64,000 nt of DNA from Membranipora membranacea. Its lineage: Eukaryota; Bryozoa; Gymnolaemata; Cheilostomatida; Membraniporidae. The notes under the pieces are model-generated. The model was given only the letters and a program-made list of their open reading frames with translations, searched no databases and was not told the origin of the DNA. Position numbers and translations under genes: made by a program. The DNA is taken from positions 9,362,001 to 9,426,000 of the forward strand of contig OU612075.1 in the NCBI GenBank assembly GCA_914767715.1. The letters are read 5' to 3'. The stretch's first letter is position 1, and every line of letters starts with the position of its first letter. This document shows, piece after piece, positions 12,401 through 60,700 of this stretch.

Positions 12401-15400
12401 TTTAACACTGACTTCAAGATTACACTGTTATCAGGTGTATCTCTGATCGTTCAAGACACTTTAGTACGAGTACCTAACATATACCCGCCCCCAATTAGAA
12501 AAAATTGTACTTGGGTCGTCACACCAAGTCACTTGAGATAGATTAATGCTAAGTGAATAAGTCCACTCTTTTTCGATCAGAGATATACAAGCAATAGTAT
12601 ATTACATGATCAATGTGATTAAATTTAACGTTATCTTTTTTATAACGTGTTTGCTTGTTTCCTCTTTTTTTGGCCCTATTTCAAAAAATATTTCACTATT
12701 GAAATGATAAAAACTGTCAATAAAATTGAAATCTCATCGGTCTTAACCCCATGTTTTGACCAAACCAAGTTTGGTCCATTTGCCTGCATTCAGTGTTGCT
12801 TCCCCTCCACTGGTAACGCGGCAGGCAAAGGTGTGACCATTGGAAGAGGAGTAAAGTGAAATTCAGGCAAACTGTATCACACTTGATCTATGTTTTGACC
12901 AATCGACACAATAGGATAATACAAAACTTTTCTGCTCACCTTATATGAAGCACAAGGTGTCATCAACTTATTCCTATCGGTGATAAAACTGTGGTTCCTT
13001 CAATTTGTTGCCTGACTCAGAAAACTTGCAGTTATATTTTGTTGCAGTTGAATATCTTATATTTGTGCATATATATATTTTTTGTTGTTTTTGAGGTCAA
13101 CATGTTGTTAGTTTATTTGGTTTAAAACATACTTGTATGGAAACCGTGTAATAATAATATCTATTGCAGGTCGCGATGGACGCACTGGCACACGTGGTAA
13201 TACTGGTGATCGTGGATTTCAAGGCATCAAGGGACCTAGTGGGAGAGACGGATTCCCCGGCCGCAAAGGTAAGTTTGGACATAGTTCTGTACTGCCTTCA
13301 GCTTTCGACCGATTAGCGACGTAACATAACATAACAAATTACATCGTAGACGCCATAAAAACAGTGAAAGATAACTGAAAAAGTTAATAAAAGGGGCTAA
13401 ACAAAGTAGGGCTATGACAGCGTTTCTGACACAGAATCAGTTGTGAGATAATGCATATTGTGCATTAATTTGAATAATATGAATAATTTGTAACTTCTGT
13501 AAATGTGTACGAACCCGTACAAGACTCAAAGGAACCTCCTCTGATGAATGTTTTTATTTGATGGCTGGTTTATTACTACCAACGAAAAAAATGTCGGAAA
13601 TTTGTTGCTAACACTAGCAAATATGAAAAAGAAGGCATAGGAAAAACGATGTCTGTCGCATTATAAAATTTAATGGCATTCAATGTTAATATCACATGGT
13701 TCAAATAACTGTCTGAATGATTATCTGGCCTGAGGAGACCTGGTTAAACCTCTAACAAATCCCACTACCACAATAATGCGCGATAGTGCATCTACAATCA
13801 TTGAGCCAACTTACAGTTCACAACAAGTCCTTGTTCTCTAAGATTGCTCTTCACACTCAATCACACAAACTGCATCCTCTACTTTACTAATCACAGAAAT
13901 TTGTACCTTATGATATTATTTCCACTATTACATAACTTTATGATATTCATCGCTTATGGTGGGATCTAGATAACCATCCTCAATAGGTATTTCCACATAG
14001 ATAAATTAATATAGCCCTTGTTTTTTTCCTACTCAAAATAACACAGGATTAAATGTTGTTTGTTTTTGATGGTTTATAACTGATGAGTCACAAAAATATA
14101 TATGTGTATGGTGATAACATAGTACCAATGTGAACATCAGGATATCAAAAATAGTACCAGGAAACCACAAAAATCATTCCCATTACACATCAGGAAATAA
14201 TATCACAGTTACTCAAAGAAATTCGTAGTTTTGCTTGCAGCTTCAAACATATTGGGATAAAAATGATCAATCATAATGTTGATATATTTTAAACTTTATT
14301 TTTACAATTAGTTTTGCTTGCAGCTTCAAACATATTGGGATAACAATGATCAATAATAATGTTGATATATTTTAAACTTTATTTTTACAATTAGGAGTAC
14401 CTTTATAGAGTCATGTTTTACACTAAAGTTGATGTGTGACAATTAAACGTTGTCTAAAAAGAAAAAGGTAGAGTAACAAAGTACCCTCTCCCTATGATTT
14501 AAGAATGCCGCAAAATCCTTCCATACCACTCTGCTTATTCATTTGTTTGTAACTGGGATTCTGCCAACGTTTTGATCATAATACAAAAATGAACCATATG
14601 CATGAAAACAATGATAAGGTTGCAAAGGCTGCGTTACGCAGACACTTAGTGGAAATACACCAGATCCTGGCTCAAATAGGATAGAAAAAAGGTAAAAACC
14701 TGTGATCTGGGCGTTATAATCCTCTCCCAAATTCTCCGGTGCGCAGAATGGCTTTTGTCAAGATCAAAATAGACTGAGGTATGATGAAATAAAAGGTCAT
14801 ATAAACCTGTTTGTACCAGTAGTAGTTCTAGTAGTTTGTAGGTCACAACAATCAATCACAAGGCCATAGTAGGGTTCATGTGGTTATTGGATGCTGGTCT
14901 CCAACGGAATCAGTTAGTTATGAGAATGTCTCAGTTTCATACACCGGAGTCGCTTCCAGCGTCAACGAGGAAAAATTACATCAACCGATGTCGCTCGAGA
15001 TAAATCCACATCAACTGCTGCTGCATTGTAGGAGAAGCTGATTATTGGATGCTGGCCTCCCAAGGTATCAGTTAGTTATGAGAATGTCTCAGTTTCATAC
15101 ACCGGAGTCGCTTCCAGCGTCAATGAGGGAAAATCACATCAACCGATGTCGCTTGAGACAAATCCACATCAACTGCTGCTGCATGAGACAGATCAACTAA
15201 CCTCCTCCTACTATCGACATCGGCTACATCTTAGACCTTTTTGGCAAATCGACATCCATCTTAGACCGCTTAGGCAAGTCTACATCCATCTTAGACTGCT
15301 TAGGCACGTCTACATCCATCTTAGACTGCTTGGACAAATCTATATCTAAATCTACCTCTGCTGTCAGATGACAGTACTCCCCTTTATGACCTCTTCCTGA

Positions 15401-18400
15401 CTTACTAGATTGGCCGGCCGTGGGACGGGGGGCAAAGTCTGGGGGGCTCAGACTAGCTCCAGACTGATGTTTCTGGATATACCTGGTTGATTGTTTAGCT
15501 ACAATAAGAAGAAAACATGGAACGTTCAGCATCTCCTGTCACGAAGCAAACAAAATCAAATAATTATCTGCTGAAGTATTTACCAATGTGTATGTGCTTT
15601 GGCTAGAGCTGTTCAAGCTTTTTTAATCAGTGTACATAACTTACTTGATATAGTTCCCATTTACTTCTTTCTCAAACTAAAATTTGTGTGCAGTATCCAG
15701 AAACACAGTTGAGTTTTTAATGATACAATAACTACAGCCACATGCCTTTTGTACGCTCCGCTAGAGGAAATGATGAGGAAACATGAATAATCATCATGTT
15801 TTTTAACTGAGAGTTAATCACCGTGAGAGTGATTACAACAACAACCTAGAGTTTTATTCTAGCTGCTGTTGCAATAACCATCGTAACCAATATTCTGTGT
15901 GATTGTGTCAATCAATTCCAAAGTGGTGATTTTTTGGTATGGTACTAGATTGTTTCACAGAGTAAGGATAAATATATATCCTTACTTTATGATTGTTTCA
16001 GGAAATCATTTATTGGCTAATCATATAGCTATAGAGTATTCGATGGTATTTATATTATGACTTTGCTATAGCAGGGGCTTGATAATTGGGGGTGGGTGAA
16101 ATCAAACTGATTTTCATATATTACTGACTTGCTTGACCTATATTAAGCGTGTCATTATAAAGAAAGTTGAGGTGAACTATATCATAGTTACTTTATTTGG
16201 TGACTATCATCTAACTAAATCATCTTAAGGCATGGCTGTGTGTCGGTGCCGAGATGAGGTGTAAGGCTGCATTACACATTTGCGCTGAACTGAGGCCTTT
16301 CTACATATCTTTCCCCCTATCCTCCAGTCATTTTTCCTTCTTCGGCGATACATGCTTTCTAGTACGTAACATTGTTTAGGATCATTGTGGCAACGCTCAT
16401 TGGTGTATTCAAACTGACCATAGCATGGTAATAACTTTCATCAATATTGTTCCGATGCAATGTTACCAAGAGGCCATCAACAGTCAGCAGTAAAACTGCT
16501 TTAGGCAATACAACAACTTTAATAAACGACCGGAACAAGAAGTTTTGCCAAAAAGTGACGGGTTGAAAAAATATTTAAAAAATATATAACAAAAATTGGA
16601 TATATGGAAGGAGGAAAATATTTTTAAAACATTAAGCGAAAGCTTTCGATTTCACACTGTTCTACAATATAGCATGATCTGTATATATGCATGGCGTTTT
16701 TCAAGATATGGAATAATTGGGAATGTAAGATATTTCATAAATAATTGATTATGAGAATAAAGAGACTCAATGGGCACCGAATTGCCAAAAAAAACTATCA
16801 CAGGTACTTGGGTAAAAATTATTCAAAATGGGCAGTTCAGTATTTGCTTGCAACTGCTCAGTCACATCCGGTCTTCCAACACAGTCGCCCCCACTGCTTC
16901 CGCCTTAGTCACATCCACCCCCTCCACTAGAGCTGCATCCACCACTGCCGCCTCCACTGCTGCAATCCCCTCCTCCAAATGAAAAGCCTCCTCCAAAGCC
17001 AAAGCTATTACCGGTGGAGCTAGAGCTATATCCCCCTGAGTATCCACCCTTTGAGTATCGGCTCTTTGATGATCTGTAGCCGCCACTAGACTGAGATTTC
17101 TTCTCCTTCTTCTTTGCTAATTTTGCTGGAAAATGTATAGGAACTGAAAATATCAAGTCATTCATTATTATGAAAAGATAACGTGCAATGATATACATTA
17201 ATTAGAAAGCACTGCATATTGAATATAGATGTGTTTGGAATGGATTATGCCTCTGCCTCTCCATATGAATTTAAGATAACCATTGTATATTACTTACAAG
17301 TTGATATCCCCATGATTGTATACTTGTACACAGATAAAGCCGTTTCGTAGGTCTTCTAGTTCTAGCCAAGTAGATTGTTGAATTGTGAATGATGACTACT
17401 GATGTAGGGTCTACCTTTATGTGTTCTGTTTGAGGAAATCAACATGGAAAACTACTGAAAACTTGTAAATAAGGGATTCTCCCCATTCCCCTATTCTTGT
17501 CACAAGAGAGTTAGGCATCAATGTGAAATTCCACTCACATATGGTACTGTATTATACTGATTATACAGTTGACTGATTAGAAAGAATTAAAAATGATATC
17601 GCAAAAATTGCAACATATTATTGCTTCAATGATTCACATTAGGTTTTGTTATTTGTGACTGTACAGTAAAAATTCCATAGGATATATGTTAAATGGATGA
17701 TAAGGGTATAACATTATCAAAGGTTATAAATACATCTTGACTATTGAGAAGGGAAATTTTCCCCCATTTACTAACTAACATTATCTTTTGAGTAGAAGAG
17801 TATATCCTGGTCATGCACTAACAATCATGATCATTTACTATAAGTCAAAGAGGCTCCAAAATTGTATCCGAACATGACAATTATGACAATAGGTAAATTC
17901 GCGCCCTTGGTATCTATATTAAATAATCATTAATCATAATCATTTTCATGGGGAGTCCAACTGAATAGATTTTATGATTAGGTATACGGTTTTTCAATGA
18001 TATTGACATGAGACTTAGAATTATCTCCTCATTGGTAATAGGGAGACAACTTGAATTCAAGTTGGATTCAGTTAGATTTCCCCATGAAAATGATTATGAT
18101 TAATGATTATTTAATATAGATACCAAGGGCCGAATTTACCTATTGATCAAGATCTTAACCTGTTTTGCTAAGTAGGATTTAATCATGGTAAAGGCTAGCC
18201 TTGTCACAGGTTACCAAAAAAGTAGCTGCGTGACATGGCCAGGTTAAGGCACGTGATTGAGAATGGTCCGACCTGACATAGAATCATGATACAAGGGAAC
18301 ACCCAATCATGGCGCAAAAAAAGTATGGAGAATTGAAACAACTTTCTTTACTCTAAATCACCCACAATGTCAGCATCTAAATGGCATGTATGATGTTATT

Positions 18401-21400
18401 CTTGCTGACTTTGCATCATTCAAGATAATCCAAAAATGTATCTAGCATTTAACTTCAATCCAAATTCTATTATGTGATATCCATTAATAACTTACAGTGT
18501 CGTGACACTTGTTTTGAACAAAAATTGTTGTTTGAGTTGCAGGAAATGGAAAAAACCTGTTTTAGATGATATTCTATTCAGAATAATAGTTCGTCAGCTG
18601 TGTCCTCTCATCAAAGAGTAAGGATATATCCTTACTCTTGGGTCATATTCTCTTAGGTATTTGGCGACACAGATTGTGACATGGGCATGGCCTGAACTTA
18701 TTCACTCTACTGGCAAGCTATGCAAAAGTGGCGCAAATATAATCCGAAGTTTTGTCGGTTTGGTTCGATATGCGATGTGTGGTAGAGATCTAAAATTTCC
18801 CTACCGATGCCTGAGGAGTGAGGAGTGGCTTGTCCAGTTTCTGGCAGCTTGCTGCACTCTTCTGCACTCTCTATGTCCTAGTATTTTATGGCCTAACACT
18901 TTTCGGACGCTGTCAAGTTTCTCGGACACACTCTTGGTGTGAGGATTAAGGCACCTCTCAACTTTTCTAACGGCCAGCCAAATCTTTTGTGTTTTATTAA
19001 GCAGTAAGACCAAGCACTGTGTCTTAGATTCATGGTTGGGCTTCATACACTACCTGGACTAATTTGACATTACAACTGTCATTGAAACATATATCTTGTT
19101 CTTGAATCTAAATCAATGCTTAGTAGTATTTTCATCTCATCAAAAAGTTAAGATTTTGGAAAAGGTATGTCAGTAAAGTGGCGTTGTGTACGTGGAAATA
19201 AAAATTGACAAATCTCAAAGCCAAGAGGTGGTACCTGAGAGCTGGACTCTTCAATGATTTCAGCTTGGCAGACAGCTATGTCCACAATGCTGCTATTTGA
19301 TATGATACACTTACCTGAAATAGTTTTGGCATTCAAATGGTTACCATTAACCATTAAATATTGATAATAATCAGGTTATGAGCTGAATCCCATGTTCACC
19401 AACAAAATGAGTCCCAACAAGATATTATGCCAACTGGATATGATATTTCTATCAATAAGACTGATTTGGGAGGTTAACAATTGTATTCTTGGAAATGAAA
19501 AGGAAATGAAGATGAAAATTTAAAAACAAGCATACTGTATATACACATTACACATAGCATAAAAACTGATGTCCGACATGAAAATGATTATGAGCATTTA
19601 GTGTGCTTCTTGGAATAAACCTACACTGTAGGTTGTTCTGCACTATAATTTACATGGCTTTGGTTTTGACAATAAGATCACAGCATAGGTGACCAGCGAT
19701 CAGCTTAAACTAAGGCAACCATTTCCGTTCTTAAAACAGATTGGAATGGAGTATTCAATAATAATGGATAATAATATAAATGCAATTAAAGCTATCACAG
19801 CTACTCTTGGAAAAAAAGAATGAAAATGAAAATAAGTGTTTAAACTTCTGCTTATAAATGTTCAGTCACATCCACAGCTTCCCCCAGAGTCGCCTCCACC
19901 ACCACCGCCTGAGTCACATCCGCCCCCTCCACTAGAGCTACCTCCACCACTGTCACCTCCACTGCTGCAATCCCCTCCTCCAAATGAGTAACCTCCCCCG
20001 TAATCATAGTTATTACTGGTAGAGCTGGAGCTATATCCGCCCGAGTAACCACCCCCTGAGTAGCCGCTCCTTGATGAACTGTATCCACCACTAGACCGAT
20101 ATTTCTTGTTATTCTTCTTGGCCAGTTTTGCTGCAAATAGTTATAATACGATACAATAAAATAAGAACCGAATCACTGTACAGAATGAGCTTCTCATAAT
20201 TGAAGCGTTTAACAGCCGATGTTTATGGCTGAAGCTTCGAATATCATCAGTTGACAATTGACATACATTCAATAATCGTTATCAGTAGAAATTACTGCTG
20301 GTGTGGTAGATGTCTAAGGGGGTGATCTGCCCTAAAACAAGTTTAAACCAGTGTGCCTGCATACTAGTGGCTCCCCTTCCACTGGTCACGCCGTAGGCAG
20401 AAGGCCCTTTTGGATCAAACTTGGTCTAGATCTGCCCCTGCATATGATCTAACTGAAATATTACTTACAAGTTGATATCCCCATTGTAGTACTTTGGTTT
20501 ATTCTGTTCTCTGTGTACAGTTTTTGTTGATTTGCTAGTTATATCCAAGTAGACTGTTGAATTCTGAATGATAGCTTAACATGTTTGGCTTTCACTTTTA
20601 TGTGTTTTCTATGAGGAAATCAACATGGAAAACTACTGAGAATTTGTAAACAGGGGGTTTCCCCTTTCCATGTCACTAGAGAGTGAGTCACGATTGAGTG
20701 ATAGCCGTATGTAGAATGCAACATTATACTGTACTGTATATCATTGACTATACCGCTTGATGATGATCTTGTTATTTTTCATGACGTAATTATTGCGACA
20801 CCCTGATAAGAAATAGTAAACACGGATGTCACGCGTTTGGTTGATCACAACACTATGCGATTAGAATCACGATTGTGATTATACAGTGATGTTACACAGG
20901 ATGCACAGAGCAACTGAAGGGGAATTCTCTCAATTATTCTCAGGGCTAAAAATTTGTTTTCATGTTGTGATTGACGTAGTAAAGATCTGTGGAAATTTAA
21001 GAAATATTACAATTTAATGATATTATCCTTGAGAAAGGATATAAATGTAGTTGGGGCTTGTCAGGTGAATCATTAGCGTATAATGCAATCTATCCGTGGT
21101 ATATGATCAATCCTAGCTCATGTTTGGTCCAGTTTGCCTGAATTCGGAGTTGCTTCCCCACTACTGTCTGCAGATCATGCTGCATCAAAAACAAAGCACC
21201 TCATTGCTCTATTTTGTGACTCACACAAATCTAATCAATACAACTCCATAACATTTAACGCCAGAGAAAATATGAATTAGCTATTGCACAGTTTTATTTT
21301 AATATGTTGGGATAGTCAGAAGAAGATCACAATAAGATATACAATTTGATACAATGAAAAGAATTTTCTCGGTGGAAAAGTCAAATAGGTAGACATCGAA

Positions 21401-24400
21401 CTTGTGAGAACAACAAAATAACTAAACAAAATTCCCTCACTCATTTCACTGTGTATTGATACCGGCTATTCAGACAATAATTACCTATCATGCTCTTCAT
21501 CTGTAAGTTTCGCGTTCTTTTCATCCAGCTCATATGGCAAGAACATGGTAATTTACAAAACAGTTGTTCAAATACACAGCTACTATTTTTTTAAAGTGCT
21601 AAATCTGTAGCAGTAGTCAGACAGCTGTTTAGTTTAATCATCATAGCTTCCACCACCACCACCACCACCGCCACAGGGACTAGACCTGCCCCCTCCAGCA
21701 GGGCTGGATCTGCCACCGTATGAACTGTATCCTCCCCCACCCCCTCCACTATAGGAACTTGTGGTATGTCCTCCTCCTCCCCCTCCCGAGCTACCTCCGT
21801 AATCATTGGAACTCGACACAGCATTACTACCATGATCTGTTGAGCTGGTTATGACTGTACCACCTCCCGTAGAGCTCTCAGTCACACAATCCTTGCTGCT
21901 GTCACCTGCTGTGTCTGCTTTAGTAACGGCAGGGCTAGCGTCATCACAGTCCGCTGTCACTGCCGAGTCATCGTTTGCTGTGACTGCTGCTGAGTTATTC
22001 TCAGTTATCCCTGCCACCTCATCGTCATCATCATAGTCATCATCATCATCACTTTCTACAAAACAGAAAAGTCTATAGTTAGTATGAAAAGCTTCTCTGC
22101 AACTTTCAGTCTCAGTACTCGATGATATCTGTACCTAAATTTTTTTTTAATACTTTTATTGGCATCATAATCATTTTTAAGAAAAAAATGCTTTTTGTTA
22201 AGTGCCAAGAGAAGAAAGGAAAAAAAAGCAATTGTATGTGAAGTGCGCTAATAGACTCATCGCTCTTAAAGACTACAGGAAGACCATAATAAAGTGGTAG
22301 CATCGATACCTCATAGATGAGAAGGGAGGACAATTTCTAACAATTTTTACCACAAAGCTCTATGAAATTTTCTCACTGTAAAAATATTGCACAACTACTG
22401 CAGAACTACCTGCTAGACTGAAAATTGCTTTGGTGCTTCTGTAGTCTGAAATCTTAAAAGTTTTGTGACGCATATAATATCGACTTTGTTCATTTACCTG
22501 TAACTTTTACATGCAATTTCAGTCAGTACAGTGTATGAGTATATAATTAATGACCAGGGCTTGAGAGGGAAAACATGCATTTATTACAGTGTAATAATAG
22601 AGTAATTGTAGAGTCTGCGCTTATGGGGTCACCTGCCTTGATAAAATCGCAAAATAATCTCACAAGCATCAATAACACTGTCAGATTACATAACTCAGAC
22701 AATCTATAACAGCAGTGGTCTACCCATTCACATAAACTCAGTAACCCTTGTCTACTGGTGCACCAATTCTGAACTGACATGTGCTGTTAATTCCACCCAG
22801 AGGCAATAAAAGAATTTACTTAACAAGACAGAATAACTTATAAATAATCTCACAATGTATAACCTGAATAGGAATGGTCAACTCAATTTTACACCTCCAC
22901 ACCATTCTGCCTGCATGATAGCCTTGTGACATAGTCTATCTCTGCAACACAGCAATGGTGGCGCTGCTTTCAAACAAGAATTCAGAGTTCTAGAGGTATA
23001 AAAGCCAGCGCTCCATTTGGGCCCAAATGTTTCTATATTATGGGTTTCCATTGTTTTCCCAATTTGGGTACTCAGTTTAGGTGAATTAATTTAGGCCCTA
23101 TGCTGCTGCAGAGACGATCGTATGCCTCAACAGTTTGCACATACGCACAGTGCCTCTACACAGCTACCATGGTGATCTGACATTCCTCTCTGATCACAGA
23201 CTAACTTTACAAAGTTAGCTTCTCACCAACACCAATACGTTGGGCAGAATTTTGGGAGATGCTTCTTCACCACCATGGCACAATCGGCCAAGTTTATAAG
23301 CCAAGTCATCCGCATTCTGTCTTCTTTTGGAGCAGCTGACCAGAGTAACGAGAACAACTCCAAATGCAAATATAAGAAATGAAAATGCAATTCAATCCCC
23401 ACTCAACATTTAGATATTGCTAATCTCATGTTGATACAGTCAATGATTGAGGTATATTATTCTTCTTTGCCTCACATTAACAATTTACCTCTCCTTTTGT
23501 TGGTTGCTACTGCTTTTCCTCCCACTTTTCCTTTCCTCTCTTTCTTCTTCTTTTTTCTCTTTTCTGGAAATATAGTAGAACTGGTTAAATATCTCCATAA
23601 AGTTGCGACATAGCTTTCTGAGAAGATTATAACGTAAACCCTATCAAGAGCCTGAGCTAGTCCAATATCCACTACTCTGACCTCCCCTTCCACACTGGTC
23701 CGGGAGGGAATACCGAGTACGCTAACTGACTGCAAAAACTTATCAACTCAACAAACACAAAATATAAAGGATGCAACTGACACACTAGACATCTGTATGC
23801 ACAAAATCTAATAATATCTAGTGAAGATCTTACCTGCTGACAATAAATTGCCCATACTGTCTGTCTGTCTGTCTGTCTGCTGATGTAGCTTCACTGGATA
23901 TACTTTACTTAGGATATGACGAATCAGTATTGTAAATCGAAGCCTCTCTTGAGAATATTAACGAGATTACAAGCTCGTAGTGCTAAGCTACTTATCCTCT
24001 CACCGTACTTTTACTGTGATGGGTTACGACTAAAAACAGTGAGACGAAAGTGATATCCTTCAGACGTTGTATTAAAAAGCAGCAGTCTGCAATCTATAAT
24101 TTGCAAGCAATCAGCAACCTACATGAAATGAAAATTTCACACAAATACTTAGCCTTAGGATCTTTACTTCTATATGTATTGCGATGAATAACAGGCAAGG
24201 CCTCATTGACAAGCAAAGCATTTGGTGCTTAGACTATATTTTCTAGGTAACTGAACTTGTTGAACATTCTGATAAATGAGATGCTACATTAAATTCAAGA
24301 ACAATGTAATCATCCCGTGGGTGTTATTCATAGTTCATACCCACCAGTACAGAGTTACATATGACCTCACTAGACAGCTTTGTTTATGTATGATATTGTG

Positions 24401-27400
24401 CTGATAACCATGACAATGATATTGATATGCTGATTATCACATACACTGACGTAATAACCATGTTCTCACATTATATGTGTGATATAATTTGGTATACACA
24501 TTGGTGTGTGAAATATGGTCTGATACGCAAGCAGCTGACACACTGATATCTATATTGTGTGAGCTGTAAGGCATCTAGATCGTAATTTTGAGGATTGGCT
24601 GAGTTTTCTCATATTATGATTGGACCAGAAGAATGCTATATTAGAAATCGTGCTAGTGCAAAACCAATTAACTACAAGCTTTTCAACACAACTCATGTTA
24701 TTCATTACTAATCATCTCTGAACAGTATGTTTTAATAGTTTAATAACATAAAAAATATATTCACTCTCAAGCCAACCTTACTTTGTAACAACATAATTAG
24801 GCAGATTAAATAAAATTGTTTTTCGCCACCAACAAAAATTATACTCTAACATTACTAAACGTAGATTTGAGGACTCCCTGCAAGCTCATCATCCACATGA
24901 TATGTAGTGAGCCACTATCCTCAATCACGTATAAACAAATTAATAAAAGTGTTGACACATTATTATAAAGTCATAGTTTTGATGAGAGTTGCCCTCTTGT
25001 TGTTTAAGGGGAAACAAGTTCTGTAGCAACGGATATCAACTTGTAACTACAGCCATCTTTTGTGTGTCTACATTATCGATGCTATCCAGTTGAGATGATA
25101 TTTAATCTAATCTTTAAATCTCTAGTTATTACATTATGTTATGTTTTCTTGTCCAGGAGCACCTGGTGTCCAAGGACCACCTGGAGTAACTGGAAAACTG
25201 GGAAGGAAAGGATTTGCTGGAGTTGATGGAGGACAAGGACCACAGGGAGAGAAGGGATACCCTGGAAGTGATGGATTTGGTGGCAGATCTGGTGCTAAGG
25301 GAGAACCTGGACTACAGGGTCCTCCAGGTAAATTATTTTGGACTTTCTTTGAAACTGCTTCCGGTTTTCAGTGATTGAGTGAATAAGTGATCAGACTCAT
25401 TTTCATTGGGTGTATATTTTTATGTTTCTCGCATCTGATAGCTAGTCTCTGTCAGTCTCCTTACTGCGCAAAGTAAACCAATCAAGCTATATGAATTAGA
25501 GAAGCATTCAACAATAAAATAACTAGAAATTCCGCGATCTTAAATGCCACAAAACTTCAGGGGTGTGGATGATATACACCCAGGTTGTCGGTTGAGTTTA
25601 TGATGGATGCCAATTTGCGATGTCATTATAAGTGCAAATTAAAATGGCTGTCCTTTCTATGCCACCTATGAGGTAGACATCCGGAGATATTGTTGTCCTA
25701 TTATGTGGCAGAACTCCCCCCACAATTATTTTTAGTGAATACAGCCATAGAATATAACGTAACAAACATGTTATAATTGTGGTATATTTATATATATTAT
25801 ATAAAAATAAGGGCCTCCCCACGCTCCCTTCTTGCTTTTTTTAATCTGTCCTCACCAGAATTTGAGCATGGGCTGAGATCAAACACTCCCACCGCTCAGA
25901 CACACTGGGCCGCTAAAGCTTGCAAAGCTCAGTGCGAAATAATCCAGGTGGTTAAATTTAATGATGTAGTGGGTGTAAGTAGCAATAAATAGGTACCAAA
26001 ACAAAACAAGTTAAACCACCAAGTAGTAAAAGAGATAATTGTGTCATAAAATCTGTCTTCACCGGGATTTGAACTCGGTCTGGTCTCTCGCGCAACAAGC
26101 ATGTTAAAATTGTGGTATATATATATAATTGTACATTGTATATAATTGTATATAATTGAATATAATATATAATTGTATATATCATATTATATAATTGTAT
26201 ATAATATATAATTGTGTATAATATGTATATAAATGTATATATTATATAAATGTATATCATATATAATTGAATATATTATACAATTGTATATTTATGATAA
26301 AATTATATATATTATATTATCGTATTTAAGATATACTTGTAAATATTATATAATTGTATTTAAGATATAATTGTATATAATATGTTATTATATATATTAT
26401 AAAATTGTATATAATGTATAATTGTATATAATATTTAATTGTATATAATATATAATTGCATAGAATATTTAATTGTTTATGATATATAATTGCATATAAT
26501 ATTTAATTGTACATAATATATAATTGTATGTAATGTATGTATGTATATAACAAAACAAGTTAAACCACCAAGAAATAAAAAAGACGAAATGTAAATTCAA
26601 TCATTTTTTTTAAGTCAACCTTTTTTGTTTTTTATAAGGGCACTTTTGGAAAATATTTTTTTGAAAATGATCCCCATTCACCCCTGCTCTTTTTTTGGTC
26701 CCAACCGGGAATTGAACCTGGGCCGCTATTCACCCCTGCTCTTTTTTTGGTCCCAACCGGAAATTGAACCTGGGCCACTGGCACTGGGATTGAGCACAAT
26801 TGCCACTCGGCCATCCGAGCCGCTGAAGCTTACTGATTTTCAGTGATGTATGTTGGAGATATATGGGTAAAGTAGGCTGTTTTTTAATTTTTAATTAATT
26901 TCAAGCTTTCATGGCATAAATCAGACAAAAAAATATAAATAGCACACCCTCATCTGGTTTTACTACACATACGTGGTAGAACACAGGACTGTGATTCAGC
27001 CATTTGTTTCAAAAACACTTTTTGATAAAGTGATATGAGGCACTGGCTTGGGTTTTGTATACACATGCGTTTATCATAAACACAAAACTGAAGTTTTGTG
27101 GATTACGGTGATAGATTATAAGGAATGGAAAAAGGCAACTAGGATTAACTTTACTTTGATAGAATATTTATTGGCGATAGTACAACGTTATAAAATGTAA
27201 AATATATTCATTTTGTTTCTTCAGGCCCACAGGGACCCAAAGGCAGAGAGGGTATATTCATGCCTGGAGTAAAGGGAGCTGATGGGGCTCAGGGTGCCAG
27301 AGGACTACAAGGTGAGTTTTGTTTAATTGTCAATACCATTTCACTTTGGCGTTGTCTTTGACTTTGATGTTTACGTGGATGTTTATGTGTATGTTGATGT

Positions 27401-43290: not shown

Positions 43291-45062
43291 AATCTGATGA
43301 CAGCCTTAAAAAATTACAGAATCACATTTTTATTGTAAATATTTTTATACACTATTGTAATCACTGTTTTCTAAATTGACCGTAGAGATATTATTGTATT
43401 TTGAAAATGGAGAAACTGTAGCTATTTAGGGAGTCTTTTAGTATGACCCTCGTCGCAGGTTGTATTTTGGGGGTTTATTATTCCGGCATATTGGTTTTCT
43501 TAAATTTTTTTCATAATAAAACTGCCTACGGCTCAATGAAATAGCCATTCTTTCCTTTGTTTTATCTGGAAATTGGAAAATTTTGGGTGGGGCTTCCCAG
43601 AGGATCTGGAGTTTTGGCCGCTGAATCATCCACTGTACTCACCTTCTTCAAGCTAGACCCATTGATATATACTGAAATTGAAGAATTAATCTGACCCTCA
43701 ACAAGCACATGGCAATTTATGTGTGGTTAAAGGAATGCATTTCTTCTATTTGATTGATCCTGTTGTTCGGTATGGTATGCTACAGCCGGCCACTAGTAAA
43801 ACTTTTATCAAATAGTGGAGTATCAAGCTTATAGCTCTATATGCGTTATAATTGCTTGTCAAAGAAAGCCAGCCAATTGCTATAAAAAGCTAAAGGAATA
43901 CTCATCAAAATGTCATTATTAAATGATGTAGCAGTTAGCTAACGACTGCGCAGTCCACTTTGAGGGTAAGACAGAGAAACATACTATTCTACTTTTAATT
44001 GTGGTCTTGACGCAATCAGCTGACCTGAAGGAAAAGGAACCCCCGAATCTCTTATCATATAACAAGAATCTGTATACTGACTTCTGCCGAAACCTACTAA
44101 TGAACTTAAACTCAGGATTATATAATGTTAAATTCATTGCCATACATCAGCTGCAATTACTAAGTAGAAGTAGAAAATGAAGAAGATGCAACGGATGAAC
44201 TGCTCCACCTCACTCAACTGTCATGTCAACACATATTCTCTGCTCTCCTCCGTAAGTCAGCACTAAAATAGAATTTGTTTCACACAACAATTGTAGTGCA
44301 GCACAGTGTAACGGTCATCTATTCTCTCCGTTTTCCTACTTCCTGCAGTAATGACCCATCTCTTTCATCAGAGCCCCTTTGCTGTTCAGATTAGGCTTAG
44401 TTTTGATCCATCTGCCTGCGTTCGGAGTTGCCCCCCTACACTGGTCATGCTGCAGGCCCTGCCACTGGTCCTACAGCGTAACCAGTGGAGGGGGAGGCAA
44501 CTCCAAATGCAGGCAAATGGATCAAACTAGTCTGTCAATTTTTTTAATGCAACCAACAGCACAACAACAACAACCAACAGCCTGCGAAAAGGGATGTTAA
44601 ATACTTATCAACAGACAATTTAAAGGAAAGCTGAGCCTTCTGTTACCAGCAAAGTCACCCTATTCCTGACAGTTAAACTTAGTTTGGAGCAAATTTCTAG
44701 ATTAGTGCTGTTTCTTTATTTCATAATATATTTATTGGGAAGCAGATCTTTGAAGAAAGCCTGTGATATGACACTTCAGATAGGTAACATAAGTGTGATA
44801 CAAAAATAAACGTAAAAAAACTCTCCACTTATTTCATCCTTCGCCCTGTTTCGCACAAACAAGAGCACTTCTCCCACAAATAATTTTCTGTTGATGTTCG
44901 TTGTGCATATTTATGAAAATGGTATACTTCCGAGTAAGACTTCATAATGATTATAAAAATAATAATTTAGAGCGCATAAAATATGCTGCGTTGTGACTGA
45001 AATTGTACCAGTGGATGGATCCAGTAATGAGATACGCTTACACTCCCATTGAATTGAAATGT
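43291..45062. other. Convergent intergenic region, collagen IV and ELMOD2
   Basis: Contains 3' flanks of both genes, the complete hairpin at 44402-44526 and minus-strand AATAAA motifs at 44715-44720 and 44731-44736, suitable as the ELMOD2 polyadenylation signals about 330-350 bases past its stop. No gene recognised. Confidence 0.6.
44402..44526. mobile_element. Hairpin repeat, family 2, complete copy
   Basis: Arms of about 50 bases: left TTTGATCCATCTGCCTGCGT then TCGGAGTTGCCCCCCTACAC, right GGCAACTCCAAATGCAGGCA then AATGGATCAAA. A 25-base centre has TGCAGGCCCTGCC. A foldback MITE is likely. Partial copies at 12768, 20341 and 21121. Confidence 0.75.
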
Positions 45063-54700: not shown

Positions 54701-57700
54701 GTAATGGTGATGGTATCGACTAATTTTTTGTACTCATATTGTTAAATGGCTTGATGCTCATTGTTTCACAGATTTAGATTTCCAATATTATCCTACATTA
54801 TCCTACATGCACACATCCGACATAACACTGCTGCTGTGTAGTTTATGTTGATGTGTCCATATTAGAGTCTGAAATTCTTTGAATTTCAGTTTCAGTATAA
54901 CAATCCCTCACAGCCATCAGAAAGTTAAATAGTTGCAGAAAATGTATATTAATGAGCGTTTTCTATTACTGTCATGCTGCTATGTTGGCTAAGGAACAAA
55001 GAGTTGAACCACCATCATGTGTGCAGGCCCTATTGTATTATATTTTCTGTAATTGCAGTGGCTATACTCGGAAGGACCATCGGTTACCGATAGCTCTTCA
55101 ACCAACAACCCTAGACTTTGACACACAGTGAGTTTGAACACAACTATATTCACTCACGGGGGGGGGGGGTACAAAATATAAATGACGTGTTGTGTTGACA
55201 ACAACAAACAACCGGAATAAGCAGTCGCAAGAATCTCGCAATATCCAGTGTCATTAGCAACTTGTTACTACTATATACCATCTTCTCTCTATTGCATGAA
55301 TAGCTTGTAATACTGATGCTGCCATATGATGACGACGGAAACTTTCCATTATCCTTTGTCAGCTTCAGTGTTTCTAAGATTGCATTCATAATTTCCTTCA
55401 CTACTAGATACATGCTTTGATACCCTTGAGGAGTAAATCACTCACAGGCCTGAAATAGTTAAATTTATAGCTAACAATTAATCAACCTCATTATTTATAT
55501 AAACTCCCACCACAGCTTGATAAAATTAGTGCTAGCCAATATTAAGTACCCCTCAAAACTAGCTGAATTAAACTCTAGCTAATATTTACTCTTCGAGTGT
55601 CAATGCCATCACGTATATATGACCCTAGATCCACATGGTAAGCTTTTTTCCTGCTATAGACTCATGTCTTGTCGTATGGAAATTTGGTAGGACGCCTCGA
55701 CTAACTGTCACCTCATCCAAGCTATCACATATATGTGCCTCATCATAACTTTACTCCCATGTATTCTAGTTTATCTGCTTAAGGGTATATAAGTGTCATT
55801 GCTGTTGACCCACATAGTGTATGTATATCGTTGTTAGTGTATCCCTCTGTACTTGTAGACCTGTCGGCATGCCGTCGTTGCGGCGAGTCACAATAACAAA
55901 CAGACTGAAGACAGAGTCCTTACATCTGGTATCTATAAGCGGTAGTACGCCTCACTTTCACTGCTCATTCTTCAAAGATAAGGTAAGTCAAGGTGTAAGT
56001 TACTGTTACTCCTCGGGTAAGTGTAGGCGTTTAGTTCACATGCAACAACATTGTTGCCCTGACCAAAATGCGTCTAGGTGGGGGGGTGGGGGGCACAAGA
56101 GTCTGGGGGGCTCAGACAACAGTGTTGGCATGTAAAATACTATCAATGTAGGCATTTAATTCAGCTACAATACATTGTTGGCTTTTAAAATACTGACGCA
56201 ATTTTAACAACTCGGGACGTTGATAATGTATCATCTATCTCGGCACAGTTTGCGCGCTGTAACTACTCGGGGGGGGGGGGGAGGGCCCAATTACCTAGCT
56301 AGAGCGAATTATGTAAGATAATATGTTTAATTGCTCTTATTTCATATTTAAAAGTCCCTATGTAATTTAAATTGTTACACGTGACAGCATTCTCTTTGCA
56401 TTCCAGTATACAGAGCACTCCAGAGTCCATCACTTTCTGCTCAAATAAGTGAGAGTTTGAAATAAATTACTTGAAGGGCCACATGGCCTAAGCATGTTGC
56501 CTCAATTGCCAGGAAATTGAACTTTTGAAGCGTTGAAATTATCAAGCTTTCATTGCACTCTACAGAATACTTTTTTTAACGGACAAAGTTGCAATCATGT
56601 AAATTTTTTGTTAATTAAACACAATGAGTGAGGTTTTTTGTCAACTGAATCAGTTTTCTCACGTTTCGATGTCAGATTTGCAAAAACTTGTTCTTTTGAG
56701 CAATAATTAAATCCATTGAATTCCGATTTCCTCATAAAGGTAATCTGCTTGGTTGCAGGTAATTCTCGACTGTGAGCAATTTTTTGCCAATAATCCCAGC
56801 TCAATTATCTCAGACTTTATAGAACAAAGATACTTAGGTTCCTCATTACCTCATTACTATGCTCATCACACCTTGTAGAACATCACACCTTGTAGAACTT
56901 GTGGGTGGCAGAATAAATAAAAATATATGACATCAATCTCATGCCTTCTCTTTATTTGGCAGGCAATCCGTTCAGATTACTGTCAGATATCGGTGGAAGT
57001 CTGTCGGTTGGCACATCTGACCAAAACTAAATCGGTTATTTACCATTTCCGTCTCCCTAGCCTTCAAATGTTTGTTTGTTGGCACCACGTGGATATAAGT
57101 AAAAGTATTTATAGTTAATTTGGACGCAACAAAGTTATATTCGTCCTTATAGGAAATAGCCAATATGCCTACAAAACCATTGAATATTATAAATTTGAAT
57201 TTAATGCTCAACCTGCCAGTAAACAGCTCCAGCATGTCAACTAATGACGGAAATCATGTAAAAATTTGTCAGAAATATCCTGAAAATACCATCTGTGTCG
57301 TTTGAAATCCTTCATTCACCCGGATAAGATACTGTACGCCTAACCGTCATAGTCTGTTCATGCAGTAGTAAAAGGGTTCAAAGTGTTGCCCGCTTACTTA
57401 TAGTGGCATTCCGTTATTTTTCGAAGTGTGATAATGGAATGCCACTACCAACGACCCGGGCAGAGTTTGAGCCCTTTAACTGCTCATACAGCTTGGAGTT
57501 TCTGCGCATTGTAAGAGAGGTAGACACCCGAGGGTGCTGGGGGCTGGACTAATCAACCTTGAAAACTCCCCCATTGGGACTCCTGCGGCACCAATCGCCC
57601 GGTGAGATGGTGCAATCGGTTAGGGCGCTTGCTATTCACCGCCAGGCGATTGATGCTGCGGGCGTTGTGGGTTGAGTTTCTACGCCTTGTATTATCTTAC

Positions 57701-60700
57701 CATCTCTAAACAATGATCTCTAATCTATTGTAGGTGTTACAGCCTGGTAGGAACACTACATTCGATGTGGTGTTCTTAGCTCGGCAAATTGGCAATGTAG
57801 AACACGCGCTCAAAATACAAACAGACCACGGGGTGTTCATGTACCACGTAAGTTAGAATGCCTCATGTACCTATGGTTTCTTTTAGGCTATATGTATTGC
57901 AAAAGTTTTGTAGAGAATCGTCTCTCAATACACTGGCAGTCTGACGGGCTTACTTTATAAAATTTTCTGACAGATTACTACCATTATATGCTAAATCAAA
58001 TTTGTTGGGGGGGGGGCTCTGAATACGATGGGTGCCATATATCGCCTGTATTCTGACTGATTTATTCCATCATCTATCTCAGTCCCCTTCATAAGACAAG
58101 ACACACACTGGCAGTCATCAATTGTATATTCTGTGATCTTCCTATAAGCATCTAAGCCTAGGTTTTTGGAGTAAGGAGAGCTTATGTTTGCAACATGCCG
58201 CAATCTGTTCTGCAGCAATCTGTTCTGCAGCTTGATTGGTGACTGCTTTAACCATTAGACAGTCAGCATTGCTGACTAACTGCTGATGTGTACTTTTAAT
58301 TTCATCTCATATTTCCTGCAGGCAACTTTTGGCAAGCATAACAAACACAAGACTTCTTAGACTCTGTTAAATCAGGAAGTACTCTTATGATTGAAAGCTG
58401 CCCTCTGTTTTGGTATTTGATTCCCAAAATAATTTGACCTTGACAAGCCTGTTGTTGTTTCAGGGTCTATAGTGAATTGAAATCAATAGGTCTTTCATAA
58501 ACTGGAGCATATAGTGTTCAAAGACAAAGCTGTATTAGAATTGAAATCATTATGGCTTTTTTTCAGTTTGACTATCCATGCCAACATTCAACACTCTGCA
58601 TCACAACAGAGTATTGAAAGTGGCCCAAATGTAGCCCTGTTCACACGGCCGTGTGAACAGGGCTAGCCCAGATGTACTTGATGAATATGCGTATTCACCC
58701 TTGATTTTGATCAAAATTTTACTGCAAATACCCTGAAGGAATGAATAACAGCAATCATCCTTCATTTTTGTAAGCTAAGGTTGAAAAACTCTTAGCCTCC
58801 ATACTCTTCCCCCCCAGCCCAACAGCCCCTTGACGTGAGAAGATATATAATGTGATGAAGTTTTGTAAATGTTGGCTCGCCGTAAATTTGCCTATTTCAA
58901 GCATGTGCATAAGCAAACTTTTCCTCCATCAAATACACTACTCCTCATGCGGTTAATAAAATTTTACCACCTCACAAAAATACCGGAGCTCACTTGAAGA
59001 GGACATTGGTTAATCCGAGATTCTCTTTTATTGCAGGTGTTCGGGGTGGGCGTGAGTAACCCTTATAGATTGAAGCCATTGTTAGGAGCGAGGGTACCTG
59101 TAAACACAAGCTACAGTCCTATTATAAGTATGCACAACCCATTCAGTAACTCCTTACATGTAGTAGAGATGTTCTCTAGTGGTGGGAGTCTTCACCTGGA
59201 GTTACCTACTGGAGCAGCAGAGGCTAGTCATAATATGTGGGTGAGTGTCAGGCTACAAACGCAGTTAGCTTTAGAAGTTACTCCCCCTTTTGTTGATGTT
59301 CACAGATCAGAAGAAGGATATCGGAATCAGGCAATTGAATGTATAGTAGACAGTATATCACACTTTCCGAGTCCGATGGTTGGTAAGCCCATCATGGGTG
59401 TCAGATTTAGCCAAATTATTGCTAGACCTTAACCTTAGGCTATATTGGCACCCTGTATTATGATCTGTATTCTGGTAAGTGTAAGTTTGTAAGTAGGTAG
59501 TGAGTTGGTAGGAATGCTGTATGGACGTGAAAGAAAACACTGCAATTTTCCCCCATCCATACGTAACATTTTATTAATGTGATTACACATATAGATTGTC
59601 TTTTTGTAGGAAATAAAACCATATGAAACAAAACCTGTTATGCGAGCCACATTTATAGCGAGTCAAGTCAAAAATGAAACAGGCTATATCCGTATAAGAA
59701 CCAAGTCTCAATATGGTGAGTTATTCATTGTTAATTAAATAATATTATAAGAACCAAGTCTCAATATGGTGGGTTATTCATAGTTAATCAAATAATATTA
59801 TTGTAATGTTTTGTGTCCTTCTGAACATTCGATCGAGGGTTTGGAGGTTTGACACGAAAATAAAACTACGCCTTCAAATATCCCTCATCATACATAGAAA
59901 CAAAGATCTGTGCTGCTTTCCTTCATTAACTCCCTTAAATTAAATTTATTTTGTCACTTGGCAGCTAATTATGAGCTATTGGTCCCATTGTTAAAATTCA
60001 CTCAGACCAGCCTCCAGCCATAGAGAAGTCTAAGCGCTCCAATTTTGTCTGGATTGCAGGAAGCGGCATTTCATTATTCACCATTACCCAACAATATTTT
60101 GATTGGAAAGTGGTTAATAATGAAATGCCACTACCAGCAATCTGGGCAGAATTTTAACACTAAGATCCTGAGTCTTGTGTCTCAATCCAGCACTACCGGC
60201 TGTCCACCTCACCTGATGTTGAAAATTGTTATTCTTCCTCAGGTAAAGATGAGTTATTAGTTGTACCGTTAGAAGTGGAGGTCTCTGGTTCTCCTGGGAT
60301 ATACTCTCCACAGCACATACTAGATTTCGGAGTACTACATACACAGAGCGAACCTAAATCTATCCCTGTCTTTGTTATAAACAACAGTATCAAACCTATA
60401 GAGATCACTGTAAGTACCTAGTATCCACACAAACATCGAGACTACACTATCAATATGTGTATCTCTGATCGTTAGAGTCAATTTAGTGCGAGTACCTAAC
60501 ATGTACCCGTTTAAATGAAGTCGGGTCGTCACACCAAATTCCTTGTGATGGTACTCATGCGAAGTGAATTAATTCACTCTCTATCGATCAGTGATATACC
60601 AGCAATAGTATATCACCACCATCAGTATCAAAGGCTCAGGTATACTTTTCGGTAAGAAATAATCTGCTATGATTTTCAAGACAAAGCCTTATTTAGTTTG

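Follow-up and report, generated by a model that had tools for sequence, protein, structure and literature searches.

A nested antisense cluster of small genes in a collagen IV intron of the bryozoan Membranipora membranacea

In animal introns, nested antisense genes occur as whole small genes on the strand opposite to that of the host. The locus described here differs from the usual arrangement in having several candidates in a single intron, with one N-terminal motif in common. Proteins with a Src-type SH4 N-terminus start with MG..S/T-K, followed by basic residues. Two of the products at this locus, B and C, are similar in that they start with MGISTSKLAKK, but none of the four (A to D) has an SH3, SH2 or kinase domain by Pfam scan, and they are only 78–172 aa long. 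As far as the description in PMC7752083 goes, MARCKS and other myristoyl-electrostatic switch proteins resemble B, C and D in combining an N-terminal myristoylation motif and a polybasic stretch with an otherwise hydrophilic, low-complexity sequence; in MARCKS, however, the basic patch lies mid-protein, whereas here it adjoins the N-terminus and the tail is made of Gly, Ser, Tyr and Cys. The MARCKS Pfam model gave no match in A–D at E ≤1 (beyond about 0.1, most matches are lost to the HMMER filters). The Leishmania HASPs, in outline acylated hydrophilic proteins with amino-acid repeats, come nearest to A, although they belong to another phylum, B–D lack such repeats, and the likeness is one of description alone.

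The window (the whole stretch of 64,000 nucleotides that was analyzed) includes a collagen IV intron, downstream of which lie the NC1 exons (Pfam C4) of the same gene. Among the other gaps between collagen blocks, 15 of 30 were resolved as introns, with a median of 313 bp and a maximum of 4167 bp. Runs of four or more G-X-Y triplets are absent from the three plus-strand frames of 13286–25155, and the window has no tRNA and no Rfam family at gathering score. (A bacterial promoter scan was set aside as irrelevant to an animal genome.) The minus strand of the intron carries four spliced open frames, A–D, each starting with Met-Gly and having Ser or Thr at residue 6 (Table 1). An earlier note had described these frames, and their starts, reading frames and consensus splice sites could all be rebuilt from the sequence. 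It gave the introns of A (15499–15644), B (17126–17297) and C (20131–20468) exactly; for D, the single intron 22056–23833 is wrong and is actually two, 23833–23564 and 23488–22056. The locus is a nested antisense cluster of two to four small genes, comprising two duplicates under selection, one probable gene and one doubtful one.

Table 1. Features of the host intron and of the nested frames (window positions).
Feature	Position	Strand	Remarks
Host collagen IV intron	13269–25156	+	phase 1, GTAAGT...CCAG, 11,888 bp
Gene A exon 1	15645–15660	-	MGTIS|T, 16 nt
Gene A exon 2	15224–15498	-	remainder of 96-aa frame; 30-bp tandem repeats (minisatellite) in tail
Dispersed ~41-nt motif in A exon 2	15416–15456	-	also elsewhere in genome
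Gene B exon 1	17298–17313	-	MGIST|S, same sequence as C exon 1
Gene B exon 2	16905–17125	-	Lys-rich patch and Gly/Ser/Tyr/Cys tail
Upstream block of B, common to C	17343–17517	-	75% identity
Gene C exon 1	20469–20484	-	MGIST|S
Gene C exon 2	19862–20130	-	completes 94-aa frame
Upstream block of C, common to B	20522–20690	-	counterpart of B block
Gene D exon 1	23834–23855	-	MGNLLSA, next codon split; 22 nt
Gene D exon 2	23489–23563	-	75 nt, phase 1-1, Lys/Arg-rich patch; absent from earlier intron list
Gene D exon 3	21634–22055	-	acidic stretch, then Gly/Ser/Tyr tail

The firmest part of the cluster is the pair B and C, which are tandem duplicates, protein-coding and under purifying selection. 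Their products, of 78 and 94 aa, both begin with MGISTS, and B ends before C where a TAA replaces a TCA. The first exons are identical at all 16 nucleotides and the second exons at 183 of 221, with no gaps over the length of B, while the introns can be aligned only with heavy gapping. Of the 37 differences in 78 codons, 21 fall at third positions, leaving 62 of 78 residues identical where 53.2 would be expected under neutrality (P 0.00025; dN 0.107, dS 0.479), a result that comes from one duplicate pair in one species. The homology extends into an upstream block (E 1.8e-26) that matches only at B and C in a search of the genome itself, with no third copy.

D is probably coding as well. It has three exons and encodes 172 aa, and the genome search returned D alone. 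Its glycine codons are mixed (GGA 15, GGT 13, GGG 5, GGC 4), and all 28 DNA repeat pairs detected in exon 3 keep the reading frame; third positions account for 99 of their 192 differences, in a count that includes overlapping pairs more than once. A 9-codon repeat test of this exon gave nothing in any of the six frames. (One 8-codon pair, picked by eye, keeps 7 of 8 residues across 8 base changes and counts for little.) Such internal-repeat tests, the kind applied to both A and D, are weak: in B, which is selected as coding, only 4 of 17 differences of this kind are at third positions.

Could four such starts in one intron be accidental? The earlier note had argued that the repeated architecture was not chance, and the counts agree. 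All four frames match the pattern MG[^EDRKHPFYW]..[ST][^P], which is the PROSITE/NMT consensus: Gly2, a permitted residue 3, Ser or Thr at 6 and no Pro at 7, with Lys7 in A–C. A rule requiring this pattern, a first coding exon of 10–39 nt, a GTAAG or GTGAG donor and a product of at least 70 aa, set down post hoc when the finding was already known, picks out exactly four loci when both strands of the whole window are scanned, namely A, B, C and D. It finds 0.225 loci per window in first-order Markov sequences (40 sequences, maximum 2), 0.125 in second-order ones (200 sequences, maximum 2) and none in 18 stretches of 10 kb each from elsewhere in this genome (180 kb in all; four of the stretches flank the window). 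Among ATG models with a short first exon, MG with Ser/Thr6 occurs in 4 of 6 on the minus strand of the host intron vs 0 of 164 elsewhere (Fisher test, 4.5e-7, or 1.3e-5 with B and C entered once). A point against the favored reading is that an MG start of any kind is found in 8 of the 164 background models.

The most serious rival explanation, to which we give somewhat less than an even chance, is that only B and C (perhaps also D) are genes and that A is a chance frame running across a dispersed motif and a minisatellite. The ~41-nt motif recurs at window positions 56117–56088 and at L018 and L014, and A has 28 weak matches in the genome (E 0.018 to 3). Of these, 27 fall within residues 4–53, 13 contain internal stops and none is a clear second copy. 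A second 30-bp array lies beyond the stop of A (15131–15194), with a weak DVDL-like match (E 0.35), and the region upstream of A is not clearly similar to that of B (P 0.19) or of C (P 0.02). On the other hand, A obeys the rule that B and C obey, which no locus in the 180 kb elsewhere does, and its exon 1 length (16 nt) and intron phase are those of B and C. Repeat units 3 and 4 of A differ at five sites, and each of these changes is synonymous (P 0.0003, uncorrected for some 18 choices of frame and pair), whereas the two other successive comparisons give 2 synonymous changes to 3 and 0 to 2. A is the weakest of the four frames and is perhaps a gene.

A second, unlikely alternative makes A–D a single family that arose by duplication of the first "anchor" exon, the tail exons having later been replaced or having diverged. 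A, B and C do have a common 16-nt coding first exon that ends in phase 1 before GTAAGT, and the exon 1 region of A scores above shuffles in each comparison (P 0.003 with B and 0.007 with C; 0 of 300 shuffles with D), in a test that the ATGGG and donor common to them inflate. The tail of D also matches that of C by tblastn (E 1.7e-8), although without correction for composition, which may explain the match entirely. However, exon 1 of D, at 22 nt, is unlike that of B (P 0.57) or of C (P 0.28), and upstream neither A nor D shows a likeness to B and C that stands out (best P 0.02). The earlier note's description of a family without a recognized name stands insofar as the searches that were run returned no relative, but homology that goes further than composition was seen for B and C alone.

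Pfam gave nothing above the curated cut-off for A–D; matches below it, to Bac_rhamnosid_C in A (E 0.017) and to AP3D1 (E 0.057) and TFIIF_alpha (E 0.46) in D, were set aside as due to chance or composition. Protein database searches yielded no match at E ≤0.01 among 7,586 candidates for C and none at E ≤0.1 among 504 candidates for D residues 1–130, and the B/C alignment had no relative among viral and prokaryote contigs. In a control search, the NC1 part of a crude collagen query taken from the window retrieved 19 animal proteins at E ≤1e-10 among 84 candidates, with 64% identity at best. Since the control found animals yet no close relative of this bryozoan, the lack of homologues says little in favor of a lineage-restricted origin. 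Literature searches on nested or myristoylated low-complexity genes gave nothing relevant by title.

What might the proteins do? The reading that we favor, and consider rather likely, is that B, C, D and perhaps A are nested orphan genes for small, hydrophilic, probably disordered, low-complexity proteins anchored to the membrane by myristate and basic residues. The Lys-rich patch that the earlier note had placed after the start of B, C and D is indeed present, giving net charges over residues 2–32 of +9, +7 and +12, respectively, the patch of D being on the additional 75-nt exon. There is no hydrophobic run of more than three residues in the proteins. Once Met1 had been removed, Gly2 would be free to be N-myristoylated, and the myristate and adjoining basic patch would together tether the protein to the acidic inner leaflet, in the manner of the MARCKS and Src signals; the Gly/Ser/Tyr/Cys tail, displayed at the membrane, could then form a self-associating surface, and phosphorylation of Ser or Tyr beside the basic patch could release it. 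We infer that the frames are transcribed and their products myristoylated, membrane-localized and functional in their tails, the anchoring being predicted from the motif. It is improbable that these are instead real low-complexity proteins lacking myristate, with a nuclear or RNA-binding basic patch and an hnRNP-like Gly/Tyr/Ser tail, since, although nuclear condensate proteins would presumably also fit Lys-rich N-termini and Gly/Ser/Tyr tails, Gly2 with Ser/Thr6 is present in 4 of 4 frames against none of the 164 background models, and residues 1–11 of B and C are invariant while 8 of the next 20 differ.

In a little-studied phylum, it is seldom that orphan genes are caught with selection acting on a tandem pair inside the intron of another gene. 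If confirmed, the membrane-anchored reading would provide a compact case of new disordered proteins arising at one site in a basement-membrane collagen gene. The cluster can be checked at once against an existing M. membranacea poly(A) RNA-Seq run, ERR6464929 (PMC10290214).

It is also conceivable, but very unlikely, that the locus is modular, with anchor exons joining several tails and D dropping its basic cassette, to yield a set of membrane-tethered low-complexity proteins; their output would perhaps be co-regulated with the transcription of collagen IV or run counter to it. Every internal junction of A–D is in phase 1, so an anchor exon can join more than one downstream tail in frame; skipping of D exon 2 preserves the frame, and B exon 1 joined to A exon 2 gives an open model.

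Within one intron of a collagen IV gene lie four minus-strand spliced open frames, A (96 aa), B (78 aa), C (94 aa) and D (172 aa), all reconstructed from the sequence. Do their shared starts (MGTIST, MGISTS, MGISTS and MGNLLS) amount to more than coincidence? A rule asking for Met-Gly, none of E, D, R, K, H, P, F, Y or W at residue 3, Ser/Thr at residue 6, no Pro at residue 7, a first coding exon of 10–39 nt, a GTAAG or GTGAG donor, an open second exon and a product of at least 70 aa matched exactly these four loci in the window. Simulated windows gave means of 0.225 (40 first-order Markov) and 0.125 (200 second-order Markov), and no match came up in 18 pieces of this genome, each 10 kb long and 4 of them flanking the window. 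Without the demand for MG, the minus strand of the intron had 6 ATG models with short first exons, compared with 41 over the remainder of the window and 123 in the control stretches, 164 in total. MG with Ser/Thr6 occurred in 4/6 of the former and 0/164 of the latter (Fisher 4.5e-7; 1.3e-5 with B and C as one; 4.3e-4 without A too), and MG of any kind in 4/6 versus 8/164 (Fisher 2.0e-4), values that are optimistic because the finding itself served as the template for the rule. By that rule, the shared start exceeds chance, as the earlier note had proposed.

Support for coding differs among the four: it is strong in B and C, fair in D, weak in A. Judging from their sequences, B and C are tandem duplicates that are under selection as proteins. 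Exon 1 is identical (16/16) and exon 2 matches at 183/221 positions without gaps over the length of B. The introns (172 and 338 nt) can be aligned only with heavy gapping, partly because that of C holds a dispersed repeat, which also helps to account for its greater length. The 37 coding differences fall 6/10/21 on codon positions 1/2/3 (dN 0.107, dS 0.479; Nei-Gojobori). The two proteins agree at 62 of 78 residues where neutrality predicts 53.2 (P 0.00025), and a stop arises in 82% of the neutral simulations. Both have the same residues 1–11, and in the tail three of the changes swap Phe and Tyr. B ends in TAA where C has TCA, and the similarity runs some 30 to 60 bases further; B is therefore probably a shortened form. 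A conserved block lies 5' of both start codons. In searches of the 339,339,785-base assembly (the window is contig 11, 9,362,001-9,426,000), which pass over very common words so that family counts are lower bounds, this block matched as DNA only at B and C (2 candidates), and with protein C as query the sole matches among 3 candidates scored were B and C. The assembly is taken to be tzMemMemb1 (GCA_914767715.1), described in PMC10290214 as the genome of the sea mat Membranipora membranacea. Upstream of B is a perfect 52-nt inverted repeat, by its appearance a small element of the foldback or MITE type.

Features of the collagen IV intron and its surroundings (window positions unless another stretch, L007 to L023, is named)
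Feature	Position	Strand	Detail
Host intron of collagen IV gene	13269-25156	+	11,888 bp; GTAAGT donor, CCAG acceptor
Pfam C4/NC1 matches	~40.2-41.7 kb	+	collagen IV gene
A, B, C first coding exon		-	16 nt, ends in phase 1; rebuilt model
D		-	three exons: first 22 nt, second 75 nt (symmetric); rebuilt model
~41-nt dispersed motif (GTCTGAGCCCCCCAGAC...)	15416-15456, 56088-56117 (-); L018:7207-7247; L014:2545-2583		first copy inside A exon 2, read 15456-15416 (-)
158-nt tandem copies	14884-15184		two, 93% alike
52-nt inverted repeat	17903-17954 and 18079-18130		arms 124 nt apart
Dispersed repeat in C intron	20325-20404; 12762-12831; 44470-44531; L007, L019, L023
TMEM131 Ig-like domain exon	58998-59429	+	PF24495, E 2.3e-23

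D is probably protein-coding as well. The four frames and their introns stand as previously described except here: the single intron placed at 22056-23833 was wrong, since it skips a 75-nt exon encoding a 25-residue Lys patch and so would lose the very patch that the earlier note describes. Because the frame stays open with or without this exon, its skipping could give a genuine isoform. Exon 3 is open for 166 codons, stop to stop, and D draws on several Gly codons instead of repeating a single triplet. In comparisons within D, not between species, 28/28 exon 3 DNA repeat pairs (at least 17/24) are in frame, and third positions account for 99/192 differences (with overlapping pairs entering the tally more than once); a separate tally of repeats along the full coding sequence had 11 in frame against 1 out. 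In a count of this kind, differences at third positions numbered 29/59 in D, 15/31 in A, 51/120 in C and 4/17 in B, and this last value makes the measure a weak one. With D as query, the genome search had no matches beyond exons 2 and 3 of D itself.

A is doubtful as a gene. Its exon 2 contains a dispersed motif, a small hairpin-like repeat, and the four copies compared have little or no similarity around them. Protein A has 28 weak genome matches besides itself (E 0.018 to 3; 30 candidates scored), 27 within residues 4–53 and 13 with internal stops. A 30-bp minisatellite makes up the tail, which has a faint match in another 30-bp array 3' of the stop. Five changes separate repeat units 3 and 4; they are all synonymous in the A frame, which is true of none of the other five frames (P 0.0003, uncorrected for the frames and pairs examined). 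The other successive pairs have 2 synonymous versus 3 non-synonymous and 0 versus 2. Just downstream of A are two tandem copies, both traversed by plus-strand open frames.

Descent of all four from one family is a possible but less likely reading. The sequence around exon 1 of A beats shuffles against B (P 0.003), C (P 0.007) and D (0/300 shuffles), a likeness that the common start and donor inflate, and the tails of D and C match at E 1.7e-8, uncorrected for composition; however, D around exon 1 is unlike both B (P 0.57) and C (P 0.28). A to D fit no Pfam family, in keeping with the earlier view that they have no recognised name, so that none of them is assigned to MARCKS or Src. A limited literature search for nested or myristoylated low-complexity genes found no similar case.

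What might such proteins do? No strongly hydrophobic run exceeds 3 residues, and A to D appear to lack a signal peptide or membrane span; they should therefore be cytosolic unless lipidated. The N-myristoyltransferase consensus is Gly2 and Ser/Thr6 with a preference for Lys7, with which Gly2 and Ser/Thr6 of all four, and Lys7 of A to C, agree. Myristoylation at Gly2 would pair with basic residues for membrane binding; net charge over residues 2–32 is +9 in B, +7 in C, +12 in D and +3 in A. c-Src carries myristate. According to PMC7752083, the membrane signal of MARCKS is two-part, myristate plus basic residues, and phosphorylation near the basic residues lowers membrane binding of MARCKS and c-Src. 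Ser/Tyr residues adjoin and interrupt the basic patch of B and C, where phosphorylation might act as a similar switch. The tails, in the least certain step, may be self-associating surfaces. Membrane-anchored low-complexity proteins are the best available, if unproved, reading of A to D.

The host gene, on the plus strand, has an NC1 that is at best 64% identical to animal collagen IV. The G-X-Y frame is kept across the host intron when GGCCGCAAAG is joined to GAGCACCTGG, and no run of at least 4 G-X-Y triplets occurs in the three plus frames of 13286-25155. The intron is exceptional within this gene, because the other gaps between collagen blocks (n = 30; the 15 resolved automatically as introns have a median of 313 and a maximum of 4,167 bp) reach at most 4,167 bp. 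An exon for a TMEM131 Ig-like domain lies 3' of this host gene. Proteins of the TMEM131 type take part in collagen secretion, and the neighbourhood may therefore be functional.
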